Assembly (NCBI GenBank): GCA_000231825.2
Contig: JH720295.1
Span: 1,088,027-1,152,026 of the forward strand
Origin: Tetrahymena elliotti 4EA
Taxonomy: Eukaryota > Ciliophora > Oligohymenophorea > Hymenostomatida > Tetrahymenidae
Reading direction: 5' to 3'
Length of the DNA stretch: 64,000 nucleotides
Positions 13,858 through 49,698 of the stretch are shown here, one piece after another. Position 1 is the first letter of the stretch; every line of letters starts with the position of its first letter. The position numbers and the translations under genes were made by a program. A model generated the notes under the pieces. It was not told the DNA's origin. It worked only from the letters and a program-made list of their open reading frames with translations, and ran no database searches.

Positions 13858-15796
13858 TCAATATTTTAGAAAACAAGCAAGTAATAAGAAAGCAAGGACA
13901 AATATATTTATCTCTTCTTGTAAACTAGCTAAGATTTTTGATTTGGCTTTTTTTGTAATTTATTTTCAACAATTTTACTTGCTATTTTTATAATGTTAAT
14001 TGAGTCTGAGAAGAATAATTAATATAGATAGTTTACATTCCTTTAAATATTATTTTTTATTAAGAGATTCTTTCTATGCCATAATTATGAATAAATATCT
14101 ACTTTTTTTCTTTGTTTTAAATAAAAATGATTACTTTATTTTAATTAAAGTTAAAAATATTTACCACACCAGCTAATTCAAATTTATTTTAAACCAAAAT
14201 TATTTCTGATTTTAGTTAAAAATATATATATGTGTGATCTTTAAAATTACTTTCTGTTTTTCATCAAAATTAATTTGGTTCGTTAGTTTATTTAAAGTAT
14301 CAATTTAAATGTTTTACTATCTTTTTATTTATTCAACTTTAATTGATCTTAATGTCATCTATTGAAATGTTTTACTCTCTTTATTAATATAAAATATGTT
14401 ATCGTAATTATCTCTTAATTAATCTAAATATTGTTTTACATCCTATATTTGTTAAGTTCTCATAAATCACATTTTTTCCTATTTAACTTTACGAGCTAAT
14501 AAATTTAAAATTTAGTATTTTAAAAAATTTTCTCTCTCAAAATAGTATTTTACTAGCTATTGAATAATTAATTTATTTAATTTTAATCAACTATTCTAAA
14601 ATTTCAATTTCTACTAATAATTATGAAAATAATTTAGGAAGTCTTTTGCATCTATCTATCTTCTGAACAAAATTCATTTAAAATATTGTTTACATCCTAA
14701 TTAAAAAGTCAAATTAATTGATTTATTTATTAAGTTATAATTTAAATATCTCTACATTATCAAAATATTAAAAATTTTTTAATTACCTCTCACTATTTTA
14801 TTCAGGGGTTAAGTTAGTTAATTAATCAGATCATATATTATAAAAGGATCATTCAAAAATTGAAATTACTATTCTCTGTTTGTTATTACAAGGAAGTGAG
14901 TGAATTATGGAATACATACATTATCTTCTTGTAGTTAAAATTCTTTCCAGAATATTAATTACTCTTGACTTTTAATAATGGAGTGAGTTAATTTATAAGG
15001 ATCTATCTATGAACCAAATAGTATTCTGAAATAATAATTACTAGAATCTATTCATTTAATTGTCAAATGGTGGTATTTAATTGTAATCATTAGTTACTTA
15101 GATATATTTTTAATATAGAAGCGATTTAATTAAAATCTTAAATAAAAATTGTTACAGTCTATTATAAAAAAGAATTTAAACTCTTCTTGATCTTGAAGTA
15201 AAAGAAATATTTCTTTATTACGTGCTATTATAATAAATAACAAATTAATTAAGATTTGTTTGGAATGTAGTCAGAATAAAATTAATATATTCTATATTTT
15301 AGAGATGTTACTTATCAAAAATATTACTTTCTGTTTTCCAAATTTAAATAGTAAATTCAAATGGCTTTCCTTCACTTAATATTAATTATAATACTCAATA
15401 CTGTTCATAGTTAGACATTAAAAATTAACATATTAAAGATTCTTCAAGAAATATCATTTACTTTTCACTATTAAAAAAAATATTATATCTCGAAACTAAC
15501 TAATAAAAACTTTACTATCTATTCAATTTGTTTGATTTTGAAAAAGAATTTTTAAGTAGAAGATCATCAAACAATTTACAATCTTTTTAGAATTAAAGAA
15601 TATTATTTATTTTTTTTTTTTGGTTGAATATTATTTTTATTATTATGGTCTGGGTGTTTATTTAGTTTTAAATACTTAATTTAAGCTTATTCATTCTTAA
15701 AAATTTACTATCTTTTTAATTCAAGGTAAAATAAATATTACAATCAAATCAGTTTTATTAGTCAATCAATAAATCAAAAGTGCAATTAATTACGTC
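13858..15796 (-). CDS. Candidate microexon-array gene with hydrophobic C-terminal tail
   Basis: On the minus strand, AG-(N)-GTA units recur. In plus coordinates the 3-nt cores are 15794, 15709, 15580, 15516, 15328, 15222, 15156, 14694, 14554, 14493, 14440, 14376, 14318 and 14251. The 6-nt cores start at 15462, 15395, 15042, 14963, 14870 and 14787. Intervening 'introns' are about 50-140 nt and share nothing beyond splice ends. An 8-nt core (14165-14172) and a 4-nt core (14037-14040) follow. Because 8+4=12, phase 1 is preserved into a final exon 13858-13946 that reads KILASLQEEINIFVLAFLLL and ends KY-TGA, a plausible tail anchor or TM segment. Phase 1 has no TGA anywhere in the chain; phase 0 has two. 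The first exon is not established: an ATG at 15970-15972 opens a frame through the 26-bp repeat, but in the wrong phase. It is inference without RNA, but the regularity is far beyond chance. Confidence 0.5.
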
Positions 15797-15860
15797 CTTT
15801 TAGTATTTTTATTTTAATATCAAATATTTATACCAAATTATATTGTAATTTTATTAACTA

Positions 15861-15964
15861 GAATGGTATTTAACTTATTTCTATTTGAATGGTATTTAAC
15901 TTATTTCTATTTGAATGGTATTTAACTTATTTCTATTTGAATGGTATTTAACTTATTTCTATTT
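15861..15964. repeat. 26-bp tandem repeat, 4 perfect copies
   Basis: The unit GAATGGTATTTAACTTATTT plus CTATTT is repeated four times without a mismatch. On the minus strand each copy carries ATAG-AAATAA-GTTAAAT, the same acceptor/6-nt/donor arrangement as the adjacent microexon array. The 20-nt distance between copies is too short for a normal intron. Confidence 0.9.
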
Positions 15965-44199: not shown

Positions 44200-45581
44200 T
44201 TTTATTAACTACTTACAAATTTAGTATCTTTTAATTCTTTAATAATTCTTATCAAAATGTTTAATTAATTTGTTATTTTTTATATTTCTAATAACTAATT
44301 CTTTCATGTATGTACATAATTGGCCAGAAAAGTAAAAAGAGTCTACCACTTTTTTTAAGTTTTACACATGAAATTTCAAAAAAAAAAATTTTTTATCATT
44401 AAATCTACTTGAAAAAGAATTAAAAAAAGATATATTATCAAATTAATTGATTAAAAGCTAACAAAATTTAATTTAGTGGATCAAAAATTTGATTCAAAAC
44501 TGTTTCTTTCCATTATTAAAAATTTAACTAAATAAAACCATAAGATATCTTGAGTAATTAATTGCTTTATATCAAAAAATATATTTCTTAGTGGTCATTT
44601 TAAACAAATAAAATCAATTTCAATAATTTTATTTTAGAAAGGAAAAAATATCTTTTTTAATTAATTTAAAATAAAAATTAATATTAATCGAAATAAATTA
44701 GAAGGATTCTTTATAAATTATGAAAAATTATACTATTTATTTGATCAAATAAATATTTTTTAATATAGTTATTCTGTCAATATTTTTTTATTGTTGAGCC
44801 TTCAAATTAGTAAAATGTTTATATATAAGAATAAGTATGATTCTTAATTTATGCATCTAATTATAATCATTAAATTTAAAAATTATATGTATGCCTCTAA
44901 TTATAAAAATTAAGGTAAGTCAATAAAACGATTCCTGAATTAAGATCTTATTTTGATTCAAAAATACAATAAAATAAATAATTAGCAACTACATGTGTTT
45001 ATTATATTTTGATGGAGAGAGTGAGCAAAAAATAAGACAATTATTGGTTGATAATCAATTAATTTAAAGAAGGAGCTAAAAATAGTAATTTACATAAGAA
45101 ATTAACAAGTAAATAAATTATTTAGAGAGCTAATGAATATTTATATCAAAATATTAGTAAGTAGTAAATCAGTCAATAAAGAAATTATATTTTGATTAAT
45201 TAAAGACCATCTTACTTTTACTTTAAGAAATTTAGAATCACATTCATCCGTATTCATTCATATTAACAGAGAAGCTAGCTAACAAGCAAGCTAAAAGGTG
45301 CCTAACACAACAGAAATTTGTTAGTAAATTAAACAAATTAAAAGATCGATAGGAAATAGAAATAACAATTAAAGTTAATAATTAAAGGATTATAATTTCA
45401 TTCAATCAAACAAACAATTATAACAAGAAGAACAAGAAGAAGATATTTGTTAGAAAAAATATAATTTTCATAAGCAAAAGATTAAAAAGGTGATTAAGAA
45501 AACAAATCTCTGGATCAATAAAAATAGTTTTCAAGAAAAGTAAGGAATAATAAAGATATTTGGTTGGTAAATCGTTAAGAC
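44200..45581. other. Spacer between divergent genes
   Basis: A/T-rich DNA between RTCA and the two-TM gene. The last ~350 bp before 45582 are A-rich on the plus strand, consistent with a leader. No gene is supported. Confidence 0.4.
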
Positions 45582-46328
45582 ATGGAGGAACTTTTGAAGG
45601 ATAAAGGATATTTTAAATTCATAATTGGACGCAGTAGAGTAAAAGGATAGTTCAACAGGGAAATTATTTAGAGAAAGTATTAGGAGAAGGATTGGGTTAA
45701 AGAGAAAATACAAATCAAATAGATCATAGAAGTCATTGATGAGATTGAAGATATATGTAATTGTTTCATGGTCAATAGGATCATATTTGCTCTTTAATTA
45801 TTTTGTGCAATGATGGCATTTGCTCTTTTTGTAATCGGAATTATTATTAATGTGTAAGTGACTAAATCTGACAGCTCAGTCAAATTGTACAATTTTTGGG
45901 ATTTGAGCTGGCCATATTTCTCTTGTTTTTTCTTCATCCCTCTCATTTCATTAGGCTTGTTTTTTATTAACAAGCACTACCTCAATAAATACGAAAGAAT
46001 GATATCTTAGTACTTTGCTGAAATCAACATTAACATATTTGAAAAACAACAAATTATTTGGAAAATTGGGGAACAATGCTCTTATGTGGACTTAAGTCAA
46101 GTTTCTAAATTGAGATCAAACAGCTAAGAAATGAGTATAGCTTCACCCTAAAGCATCAAAACAAGCAAGAAAGCTGACATCGAAAATAAAAATATTTCTA
46201 TTGAAACTGAGTCTAACTAGCATAATATCTCAAGCAGTTTTAATCCTATTTAAATTAACTCAAATGTAAACTATCAGAAAGAATACTTTGGTGGAAACCC
46301 TGAAACTATGGATAATTCTGCTCTTTGA
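45582..46328 (+). CDS. Two-TM hypothetical membrane protein
   Basis: Single exon, 248 aa, TGA 46326-46328. A basic, helical N-terminal region (~1-62, many Lys/Arg/Glu) leads into TM1 at ~66-91 (NRIIFALQLFCAMMAFALFV) and a short polar loop (TKSDSSVKLYN). TM2 lies at ~110-130 (WPYFSCFFFIPLISLGLFF). The C-terminal ~115 residues are cytoplasmic-type, rich in Ser, Asn, Gln and Ile, ending in an acidic/aromatic tail. Both termini would be on the same side. G+C and codon choice (AGC, GAC, CTC) are clearly coding. An in-frame extension upstream of the ATG without another ATG was not used. No family is recognised; such two-TM proteins are common in ciliates. Confidence 0.75.
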
Positions 46329-46622: not shown

Positions 46623-48988
46623 ATGCATTATACTTTATTATATTGTCATTAATCTTGAATCATCTTAGGATATTATCTATAAAATTTTAATTTGAATCTA
46701 ATAGTATGTAAATACTTTTATAAAAAATAAATAGTCAGTAAATTAGAATTTGAAAATAGCTCGTAAGATTTGGAATTGATTGAGAAGAAATAAATTGGAT
46801 TTTTTTTACATACAACTAACTGCTAATTAACAGATTGTAACCAAATTAAATTTGAAGATATTATTTAAGTTTTCTAATAAATCTTAATCAGAATGTCACT
46901 TTAGCTATTCATGAAGTTCCATTACAAAAAAAAATCTAAAATGTCTATTTAACTAAAAGATTGTAATAATTTGAGACTACTCTTTTTAATACATAACAAC
47001 AACTTTTATATTAAACAAGTGGGTAATAAATAAATATCTTAAAATTAATCTTGACAGAATTATTTCATCAACAATGAGTTCACAAAAAACAGCAAGTAAA
47101 AATTATTCTAGCCTTAAAGAATAAAGATTGAATTAATTGATTTTCTTAATATAATAGGGAGTAATTCAGATTATTAAAATACTTAATCAGTTTTAACTTT
47201 GATTTATTATTGATTCTTATTTTTCAAAATAGAATGTAAATTACATTTCAAATCTTATTCAAACAACTGACTTTGAGATTCAAACAGCATGTAATTTTAC
47301 TTATTATTTCAAATTAAAATATCTAATATTCTTTTTCAAAATAAAACTAACAATGGTAAGTAATATATTTGATCATTTTAGACTTGGAAAGTATTCAATA
47401 AAATCATATTTACCATGAAACCAAATAGATTCAAGTATTATTTTTAGAAATTTTTTATTAAACATAAATTTTTATTTAAATCACTAACTTAAAATAGCAA
47501 CAAGTAATATCTTTAAACAATCTAGAGTCAAAAGAGATTTAATTTTGAAATAAATATAGCTTGGAGTAAAATTTTTATAATTTTAAATGAAAAAGTAATA
47601 TAGTAACTTTAAAAAAAATATAAATAACAAAGAGTAATCTAATTTATTTAAATAACTAATTAAGAATAGCTAAAAGTAATTTCTTTAAATAATTTTAAAT
47701 TTAAATAGATTAAATTTATTTATTAAATAAAAATAGGAAGAAGTATCTTTTATAAGTTTAAATTGAAAAATAATAAAATAACTTTCAAAATAAAAATAGC
47801 GAATAGTCATATTTTAGAATTAAATAAATTTTAAAGAGGCAAATCTATATTTTAAATTTAAAATAGAGCAAATTAATTAATATTAAAAAATGCATTTAAA
47901 TTCAAATATTTCTAATTAAACTTATAAAATATAAAAAGCGTCAAGTAATACACTAATAATTAAATTTTTGTAGATACTTAAAACAATTTCAAAAAAACAG
48001 ATTGTAAAATAAAGAATTGTTAAAAATCTTAAGTGAGATTTGTCCTAATTTTAAATCTAGATGGAAGTAATATTTTAAATTATTAAAAAAAAGATTTTAA
48101 CTGATTTATTCAAATAAAAAAGAGAGTAATTCTAACTTTTGAAAAATTTAAAGTTAAAAGTAAATGATATGGATTGAGTCATATTAAATTTATTAAAAGA
48201 CCATAATTTAAATGATTTTATATGAGAAATAAATGAATAATGTAATATTATTTGATGAAAAACAGAAAGTAAAATGTTAAATTCAAAAATATGTCAGACT
48301 AATTAAAATTAAATCTTATTAGCATGTAATTAATACTAAAACATCTCATAAAGTTTTATTAATTTTAATTTATTTAGTAAAATAAAAGCAAGTAAGATAT
48401 AATTGAAATTTTTAGAAATTTTAATTGCTTAAATTTGTATTTAAAAGAATGTAAATTTGTCTTGAAAGAACCTGGTTTAAAATTAATTTCTAAAATATTA
48501 ATCATTTAGAGAGTAGATTTTTATTTTATTCAAAATAATTAAGAGATTTATTAATTTTAAATTGTAATATTTGCATTTTGAATTAAACTTTATTACAAAT
48601 CAAAAATAAAAATAGATTGTAATAGATTTGATATTTATTGATGTGGAATTTGTTAAATAATTTATTATCATTTAAAAGCTGGTAATGACTATTAATTCAA
48701 AATCATAAATATGAGAAATATAATATTTTATTTAATTATTTTGAATATTATTAAGGTAAAATAATAACTAGGCAAATGATTGAGCTGAGTTTTCTTCATA
48801 AAATAATTATTTTAATAAATAGAGAGTAAAATTATTTTTAAACATTTTTTTAAAAAAATTAAAATTTTTAATTTAAAGCTCTGATGAAAGACTAAAAGTG
48901 TCTTTAGACTTAAGGCATCCTTGAAAAATAAAATAACTAACTGAATTAAAGACACAGTCATTTCTATTCTAAAGAAATTAAAACTTGA
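46623..48988 (+). CDS. Candidate microexon-array gene
   Basis: A proposed first coding exon (ATG 46623, MHYTLLY, ends 46644 in phase 1) is followed by AG-(N3 or N6)-GTA units. The 3-nt cores start at 46705, 46760, 46834, 46892, 46960, 47020, 47093, 47158, 47233, 47288, 48001, 48123, 48266, 48323, 48389, 48448, 48510, 48616, 48679 and 48823. The 6-nt cores start at 47429, 47498, 47560, 47670, 47737, 47800, 47939 and 48061. A possible 9-nt core is at 47382 and a 30-nt exon at 47604-47633. Most spacers are 52-72 nt and unlike each other. The last exon starts at 48879; in phase 1 it reads LMKDQKCLQTQGILEKQNNQ and ends EIKT-TGA (48986-48988). Phase 0 would stop at once there and phase 2 hits TGA inside the array. 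The product would be Ser/Thr/Lys/Gln-rich. No family is recognised and there is no RNA support. Confidence 0.5.
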
Positions 48989-49698
48989 ACAAAAATAAAT
49001 AAGTTATGATATGTTAAATATGTAAATAATTTATGTAATTAGTTTATGTGTTTTTATATGTTATAAACTTAATTTATTAATTTTTTTTTTTAAACAATAA
49101 AAAACAAATGATATTTTGAAAGAAAAATGAAAAAAAAAATAATGTTTTTATTAAATAAATTATCTATTTTATCTTATAAAAAATTTAATTTTAATAGAAT
49201 TTTAAAAGATTTTAATTAATTGATAATCAAATTGGTTTATTAGATAAAATGTTATTAATTAATTAGAAATAAAATTTAAAATTAATAAAAAATATTTGAT
49301 TTTTTAATATACACCATATTCAGAAAGCTATAGAAAAAATTTTTATATGTTCAAATACACTATTTTATTGCATTTTATATAGAAGAAAAAACAAACCCGA
49401 GCTAACTTGTTTTAACTTAAAAAAAGTCTAGGTTATTAATTTAAATTTTTTTATTAAATTTCTATTTTAAATTTTTGATTAAATTAAATCTAATATATGA
49501 TTTTAAATATTTTAGATCAATTAATTAGGATTTTTCTAATTATAAATTGATTAAATTAAATCTAAATGATTGTTTGAAAAAATAAGTTTTTAAAAATTAA
49601 ATTAAGAATCAAATTTCTAAAAAATTTGGAAAAACAAAGAAAATTGAAAGGAAGAATAAAAAACTTAATATATATTTTGAATAATGTGATGAAGTTTT
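48989..49698. other. Spacer between convergent genes
   Basis: Very A/T-rich 3' flank; no ORF, repeat or RNA gene is supported. Confidence 0.4.

Follow-up and report, generated by a model that had tools for sequence, protein, structure and literature searches.

The stretch of DNA analyzed here (the window) comprises 64,000 nucleotides (nt) from the ciliate Tetrahymena elliotti 4EA (C3:1088027-1152026, within a searched genome of 90 Mb and 134 contigs), and on its plus strand, at 46623-48988, it carries a dense array of apparent microexons, i.e., cores of three or six bases preceded by AG and followed by GT, mostly as GTA. The pattern AG-N3-GTA occurs 51 times on the plus strand of the window, and 20 of these occurrences fall within 46623-48988, where 1.19 are expected from the density in the remaining window (Poisson P ~4e-18); this recount bears out the original prediction, made from the sequence of the window, of about 20 compared to one or two by chance. 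AG-N6-GTA is likewise in excess in this interval (8 versus 1.34 expected; Poisson P 8e-5), and the counts at other lengths are zero for N4, N5, N8, N10 and N12, one each for N7, N9 and N11, four for N1, and one for N2. Over the whole window and both strands, AGNNNGTA has 100 matches, compared to 64 ± 8 in shuffled sequence and a maximum of 84 in 100 shuffles. The run of nine consecutive three-base units described earlier (CTC, ATT, AAT, ATT, TGG, CAA, GGA, AAT, CAT) was located at 46760-47290, except that the AAT at 46892 is followed by GTC and not by GTA, and the seven six-base cores named with it were all found (7/7), one of which, CGAATA (47800), has a GTC donor.

DNA searches of the genome with the window array (copy W) identified a near copy on contig C106 (79-81%), along with a partial match on C54 and others that are more distant; the set found by searching with two of the first relatives is taken as a second subfamily. 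Seventeen stretches of 10 kb and five of 3.5-5.5 kb, chosen by DNA similarity, were examined, among them the C106 copy, which lies on the minus strand (L008m), L012 (C40:350500), and L009 (C24:62000). Arrays were present in 11 of the 17 longer stretches, at 18-34 AG-N3-GTA and 4-10 AG-N6-GTA per 2.5 kb. Among the five shorter stretches, L049-L052 hold 13-68 microexons and L053 holds five, and no clear array was found in the DNA matches L046 and L047. Several copies or matches, on C24, C33, C40, C56, C67, C95, and C122, lie less than 100 kb from a contig end, and others do not (C24:299k, C40:351k).

The arrays were scored as chains of acceptor, exon, donor, and intron, with splice-site weight matrices trained on the 3- and 6-nt units and with exon length left free between 1 and 30 nt. 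In 12 copies this procedure returned 602 exons, of which 580 have a length divisible by three (3n), 8 are 3n+1, and 14 are 3n+2; forward chains scored 26-150, compared to 1-6 (1-2 exons) for the 12 reverse strands and 1-5 (1-4 exons) for 60 Markov resamplings. With a 3n-weighted model, 17 copies yielded 792 microexons (662 of 3 nt, 105 of 6, 9 of 9, 10 of 12, 4 of 15, and 2 of 21), and the longest chains contain 75 exons (L008m and L041), 71 (L012), and 68 (the copy on C17). The 699 introns of 13 copies display no 3n bias (234/221/244) and have a median length of 62 nt (quartiles 58-68); the background intron length in T. thermophila is given as ~56 bp in passages of PMC6564038. Furthermore, the relatives keep their cores at multiples of three, a property on which the original prediction had made itself dependent: in nine comparisons of copies other than W, the units in which AG, GT, and 3n length are all kept number 43/43, 43/43, 53/53, 20/20, 59/62, 59/62, 57/61, 57/60, and 55/60. 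Splice-site nucleotides are changed at 0-1.7% in 10 of 11 pairs of copies and at 3.7% in the most distant pair (L012/L035), and the introns differ by 1-31%.

The joined cores were read with the ciliate code (TGA as the sole stop, TAA and TAG as Q), leaving out the final four codons of each chain. Internal TGA codons amount to 2 of 888 in phase 2 (located in L041 and L042), 31 of 888 in phase 1, and 49 of 905 in phase 0, for which reason the reading in whole codons was rejected. With the introns in phase 2, the first base of a core completes one codon and the remaining two bases open the next, and in both L012 and L041 the final ordinary exon likewise ends in phase 2 (frames as read). In the nine copies whose chain gets there (W, L009, L010, L012, L013, L035, L036, L037, and L041), the reading ends with F and a stop codon (TG|A) that an intron splits; the L008m chain reads EFD and halts at a unit ending in TG, and a further AGA unit stands in the sequence after it.

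In L012 and L041, ordinary protein kinase exons lie 5' of the array. One upstream exon of L041 matches PF00069 (E 6.1e-11), L012 encodes the kinase motifs NDLKMDN, ADFGLAD, and APECYD, and in both a coiled-coil-like stretch, with matches below the cut-off only, follows the kinase exons. A 108-residue piece of the C-terminal kinase region gave 39 genome matches at ~37 loci, and this piece is the sole basis for the kinase match in copies beyond L012 and L041. An array follows the kinase match on the same strand at 12 of the 13 loci with downstream DNA examined, the remaining one (C3:2303k) having five units only; by match coordinates, units also lie behind kinase matches on C56 and C50, and array-like matches lie behind one on C18. 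The array-encoded sequences of seven copies align over ~80-90 residues with 7 invariant columns and the consensus IG.I...D....QNM.L......K.IGKVSLINGK.IY...N..LS.EEN...........EYELF. The original prediction had proposed a gene body assembled codon by codon; the units do appear to act as codon-sized exons, but the phase-2 cores are not whole codons, and they would encode a C-terminal domain rather than the body of the gene. A protein search with a piece of the kinase region retrieved six kinase domain proteins of T. thermophila SB210 at 55-63% identity. The annotated tails of the SB210 kinases P0001-P0004 are mutually unlike and some resemble read-through into intron sequence, and it appears that gene prediction in SB210 ran into introns at the kinase tails.

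The unit table of the window copy (Table 1) was built from the AG-N3/N6-GTA pattern, the splice chains, and a unit-by-unit alignment to L008m, in which W corresponds to the last 32 of the 75 microexons. Likeness between the two begins at 46656 by global alignment and covers 46704-49201 at 77-80% by BLAST; the stretch 46623-46644, formerly put forward as the first exon, falls outside of it. Compared to L008m, the window copy has five units without a splice site and two with GTC donors, such that AG, GT, and 3n length are all kept in 26 of 31 units (26 of 32 counting the misaligned first unit), and its best chain reads in phase 2 as ISLIFGKEIIFNNNLDQKKNEYVKLWKENIKIEF, then stop. No kinase exons were found 5' of the window array: the open reading frame at 44841-46328 has no Pfam kinase match, and the genome search with the kinase piece gave no match inside the window. 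The window copy is probably a relic, i.e., a truncated and decaying relative of the fuller copies, because it has no kinase exons and several of its splice sites are lost.

Table 1. Units of the microexon array in the window (copy W), with the corresponding core of the C106 copy (L008m) where the two differ in kind
Feature	Position	Strand	Remark
Stretch alike to the C106 copy (L008, minus strand)	46656..49201	+	5'-truncated, partly decayed; includes 3' part
Microexon TAT	46705..46707	+	AG-N3-GTA; misaligned in global alignment
Microexon CTC	46760..46762	+	
Microexon ATT	46834..46836	+	
Microexon AAT	46892..46894	+	donor GTC (C106 copy: GTA)
Microexon ATT	46960..46962	+	
Microexon TGG	47020..47022	+	
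Microexon CAA	47093..47095	+	
Microexon GGA	47158..47160	+	
Microexon AAT	47233..47235	+	
Microexon CAT	47288..47290	+	
Lost microexon	47357..47359	+	without AG acceptor (C106 copy: CAA)
Microexon ATTCAA	47429..47434	+	
Microexon CAACAA	47498..47503	+	
Microexon CTTGGA	47560..47565	+	
Lost microexon	47628..47633	+	without AG acceptor (C106 copy: CTTCGA)
Microexon CTAAAA	47670..47675	+	
Microexon GAAGAA	47737..47742	+	
Microexon CGAATA	47800..47805	+	donor GTC
Lost microexon	47867..47876	+	without GT donor (C106 copy: TGCAAA)
Microexon CGTCAA	47939..47944	+	
Microexon ATT	48001..48003	+	
Microexon ATGGAA	48061..48066	+	
Microexon AGA	48123..48125	+	
Lost microexon	48200..48202	+	without GT donor (C106 copy: GCC)
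Microexon AAA	48266..48268	+	
Microexon CAT	48323..48325	+	
Microexon CAA	48389..48391	+	
Microexon AAT	48448..48450	+	
Microexon AGA	48510..48512	+	
Lost microexon	48561..48563	+	without AG acceptor (C106 copy: GTT)
Microexon ATT	48616..48618	+	
Microexon CTG	48679..48681	+	supplies TG of split stop TG|A, finished by following unit
3-nt unit AGA	48823..48825	+	A finishes stop codon, remainder untranslated

It could be argued that every copy, and not W alone, is a decaying relic of once-true microexons whose expression has been lost. The clear decay of the window copy fits this explanation, as does the existence of arrays without a kinase match upstream (W, L011, L036, L037, and a gene in L010, termed gene T); however, the fuller copies keep their splice sites near-perfectly while their introns drift, phase 2 remains open, and ordinary exons keep the proportion of nonsynonymous differences (pN) below that of synonymous differences (pS), and general decay is considered quite improbable. 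At 48754-48757, the window contains AG|GT with zero bases between (TTAAGGTAAAAT), resembling a zero-length exon or a ratchet site, and a conserved AG|GT of this kind (TTAGGTAAAAT), then another 3-nt unit, is found past the stop in L009, L010, L011, L012, L013, L035, L036, and L037. At 48898-48955 in the window and at the 3' ends of the copies, AGTGTCTTTAGA recurs with a later GACAC, possibly as a 3' untranslated hairpin, and an Rfam scan of the window returned no RNA gene at the gathering threshold.

A diverged satellite in which AG-NNN-GT arises by chance, neither coding nor spliced, would be another explanation of such a pattern. The spacers had been described as unlike one another, and this holds for most introns of the window copy, but introns 9-15, those of the 6-nt block and the one preceding it, hold the exceptions: among 246 pairs of introns at most 12 apart, the 4 that rise above the 99% level of shuffles all come from this group. 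A permissive BLAST of the window also recorded off-diagonal likeness of 59-73% at 47451-48056. Tandem Repeats Finder detected no repeat with the period of the window array, and by this result and the intron comparisons the spacers are not copies of one ordinary satellite, the alternative that the original prediction had named against itself. Elsewhere, part of one array, in gene T, does contain a tandem repeat of ~96 bp, and outside that stretch an ordinary satellite was rejected by the intron comparisons and Tandem Repeats Finder. Introns are otherwise mostly unlike and free of 3n bias, whereas the cores are 3n, and the phase-specific openness, the conserved protein, and the association with kinase exons all argue against a satellite, which is regarded as highly improbable.

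The repeat in gene T (C24:42943-45371) consists of eleven tandem units of ~96 bp, each made up of an intron and a 3-nt core. The introns of these units are 81% alike in pairwise comparison (90% over the last 20 nt and 85% over the first 30 nt), and the cores are 25% alike, which is the chance level; the 63 ungapped intron columns all stay above 0.30, with a minimum of 0.59 for any three columns in a row. Gene T itself (L010 7747-10000; L054 = C24:42250-45450), for which there is no separate kinase match, lies ~1 kb from the preceding gene. Copies of the 93-nt unit intron number one in L012 (leaving out a neighbouring, partly alike 60-nt intron), four in L008m, and ~12, including a shortened one, in gene T, and the protein loop between KKGYL and [LF]xxQQ measures 3, 6, and 14 residues, respectively, i.e., the number of unit introns plus two in all three copies measured. 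In a genome search with the unit, neighbouring matches on C24 and C56 are separated by exactly 3 nt in 13 of 17 cases, and by 4, 8, 8, and 229 nt in the others. Because loop length tracks the number of units and the gaps are mostly 3 nt, the units are added whole, one residue each.

Near-identical introns between unlike codons in a variable loop are also what introners, i.e., mobile intron elements, would leave behind if they had inserted between the codons of an older, ordinarily coded domain; introners likewise place near-identical introns between unlike exons in one stretch. The introns of the C17 copy, which are mutually alike beyond chance (35 of 195 pairs at most three apart surpass the 99% shuffle level, with hardly any in L009, L012, L035, and L041), can be read in the same way. 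However, the unit introns, as seen here, are kept within one gene family, and each lengthens the protein by one residue, unlike insertion into existing codons, upon which protein length would be unchanged. A genome search with the unit intron, in which the best candidates only are scored, returned 37 matches: 26 in examined arrays (C24 19, C106 4, C82 2, and C40 1), eight on C56 and one on C50 behind family kinase matches, and two on C35 in neither group, so that 35 of 37 are confined to the family and not spread over unrelated genes. A search of the same genome at E<=10 gave no copy of the domain in ordinary exons, an empty result that is uninformative alone. Altogether, introners seem less probable still than general decay.

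To compare rates of change, differences in microexons were set against differences in introns in ten pairs of copies, bearing in mind that alignment gaps may conceal intron change. Microexons differ more than introns in seven of the ten pairs, ~2-5 fold in six of these. The difference is 20.1% versus 4.1% in L012/L013 (Fisher 2e-12), 25.6 versus 12.1% in L035/L036, 29.6 versus 14.0% in L036/L037, 27.4 versus 13.2% in L035/L037, 21.0 versus 11.2% in L009/L011 (P 0.012), 29.1 versus 20.5% in L009/L012 (P 0.004), and 3.4 versus 1.3% in L009/L010 (P 0.025). In L012/L013, the ordinary exons have pN 0.026 and pS 0.064 (219 codons), and the microexons have pN 0.205 and pS 0.229 (51 codons); the two classes differ in pN (P 6e-11) and in pS (P 0.017). 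That codons outpace the surrounding introns in several close pairs makes selection versus targeted change directly testable.

Core change might, in fact, be caused by short gene-conversion swaps or targeted exon change and not by selection on the protein. In L012/L013 all three core positions change alike (0.208, 0.208, and 0.189) and pS is high too, which fits such a process. Moreover, a core of the 6-nt block, ATACAA, is common to L013, L035, and L037, and L012, the copy nearest to L013, has TTGGGA in its place; the introns of L012 and L035 differ by 31%. On the other hand, swapped tracts would need to stop at the splice sites, because flanking sequences are as similar at changed cores as at unchanged ones (0.040 versus 0.033 mismatches), and the W/L008m pair displays ordinary constraint, with 0.265 at the first base of the core and 0.118 and 0.059 at the others. 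Core change of this origin is judged unlikely, and it would be compatible with the main interpretation of the arrays given below.

Taken together, these data indicate that the window array very probably represents the remains of a kinase-family C-terminal domain that is coded by codon-sized phase-2 microexons, is diversifying, and grows by units. As deduced from the sequences, the genes of this family would encode, in order, a protein kinase, a coiled-coil-like stretch, and a fast-evolving domain of ~80-95 residues, the last of which would be split into as many as ~75 successive exons, each of 3 or 6 nt or slightly longer, separated by ~60-nt phase-2 introns. Ordinary intron-defined splicing would remove these introns stepwise, and the mRNA would grow codon by codon; splicing probably proceeds intron by intron because simultaneous binding of the two introns flanking a 3-nt exon seems hardly possible. 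The arrays appear to lengthen and shorten as whole intron-plus-codon units are duplicated in tandem or exchanged by unequal crossing-over, with one residue gained or lost at each step and the frame left unharmed. The domain appears to be under strong diversification, and would most simply serve the kinase as a variable tail for recognition or regulation.

Several observations weigh against this interpretation. To begin with, we infer the splicing of the arrays from their sequence. Six of the 17 longer stretches have no clear array (L034 is weak, with 6 units, and L038, L039, L040, L043, and L044 have none), and in the poorest copy, L042, just 18 of 23 exons are 3n in length. The excess of change in microexons is not significant in three of the ten pairs (W/L008m, 14.7 versus 13.0%; L010/L013, 25.4 versus 20.9%; L012/L035, 32.8 versus 31.1%), and the counts are not independent because the copies are kin and pairs share copies. 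In L012/L013, pS in the microexons also exceeds pS in the ordinary exons, an excess for which selection on amino acids alone does not account. Furthermore, the six T. thermophila kinase relatives are annotated with C-termini unlike the array domain, Pfam yielded nothing above threshold with three domain models (one match at E 0.14; no leucine-rich repeat match), a search of solved structures with the domain gave a best E of 0.31, and protein searches with the domain, limited to lengths of 0.55-1.75 times the query, returned none at E<=1 among 964 candidates and none among 8 candidates.

The skipping of single exons would keep the frame and would create a TGA at 1 of 69 exons in L012, 1 of 61 in L009, 0 of 73 in L008m, 1 of 62 in L035, and 1 of 66 in the C17 copy. 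In-frame skipping is possible because single skips keep the frame and rarely create TGA, and the codon-per-exon design could itself be the function, i.e., a kinase-coupled recognition domain edited residue by residue through unequal exchange of units in the germline and through the skipping of any set of exons in the soma. This idea, which would make the arrays a generator of diversity by splicing at single-codon resolution, is put forward as a speculation that is more probably wrong than right by a wide measure.

Features of the arrays recall several known systems. The micro-exon genes (MEGs) of schistosomes have exons in multiples of three, such that skipping keeps the frame, and encode variable proteins; their exons measure 6-36 nt. 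Both the MEGs and the arrays described here have 3n exons, but the MEGs belong to an animal parasite family and are not known to have runs of dozens of 3-nt exons. CYC motifs are a feature of the bicycle genes of aphids. Passages of PMC9168663 describe for these genes, including megacycle, many microexons, nearly all internal exons in phase 2, and rapid protein change, with more than 100 microexons in one gene; phase-2 internal microexons are likewise what the Tetrahymena arrays contain. Compared by features, the bicycle genes in those passages differ in that they average ~17 exons that are not single codons and encode insect effectors. Leucine-rich repeat (LRR) genes of Tetrahymena, with tandem 90-bp exons, likewise form arrays of fixed 3n exons with extreme phase-2 bias, and passages of PMC6564038 propose that they grow by exon/intron unit duplication and ectopic recombination. 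Exons of 90 bp in that account encode a leucine-rich repeat, whereas the arrays here have mostly one-codon exons and a non-repetitive protein, with all 792 exons at 3-21 nt and no Pfam LRR match to any of the three models. That splicing can handle exons of 1-3 nt is shown by plant and animal microexons of 1 and 3 nt in excerpts of PMC8831610 and PMC7392893, which present them single or paired and not in long arrays, and a table in PMC3341644 lists a shortest annotated exon of 2 bp in both ciliate genomes compared.

Open literature searched by title, start of abstract, and passages, a search that left many journals uncovered, contained no account of 3-nt exon arrays or of microexon genes for Tetrahymena. 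If transcripts confirm the arrays, these would constitute a limit case of exon size in which a domain is built from runs of single-codon exons. They would also offer a test of how the spliceosome handles dozens of consecutive 3-nt exons and an example of protein growth via duplication of an intron and one codon, and Tetrahymena gene annotation may then overlook whole domains.

A scan of the window with free-length chains identified two arrays that stand out, all other pieces scoring 4.2 or less. The second, at 13979-15796 on the minus strand, is weaker and of the same type. Under the 3n model it comprises 20 units at 15796-14251; with free lengths, six consecutive 3-nt units (14556-14251) are followed by units of 8, 7, 4, and 3 nt, and phase 2 is open across 25 codons. 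A genome search with this array found the array itself and three short DNA matches, and a permissive BLAST, run without a control, recorded weak likeness to several arrays. Four direct copies of a ~26-bp sequence (AAATAGAAATAAGTTAAATACCATTC, minus strand), at ~15860-15961, adjoin the start of the minus-strand array.

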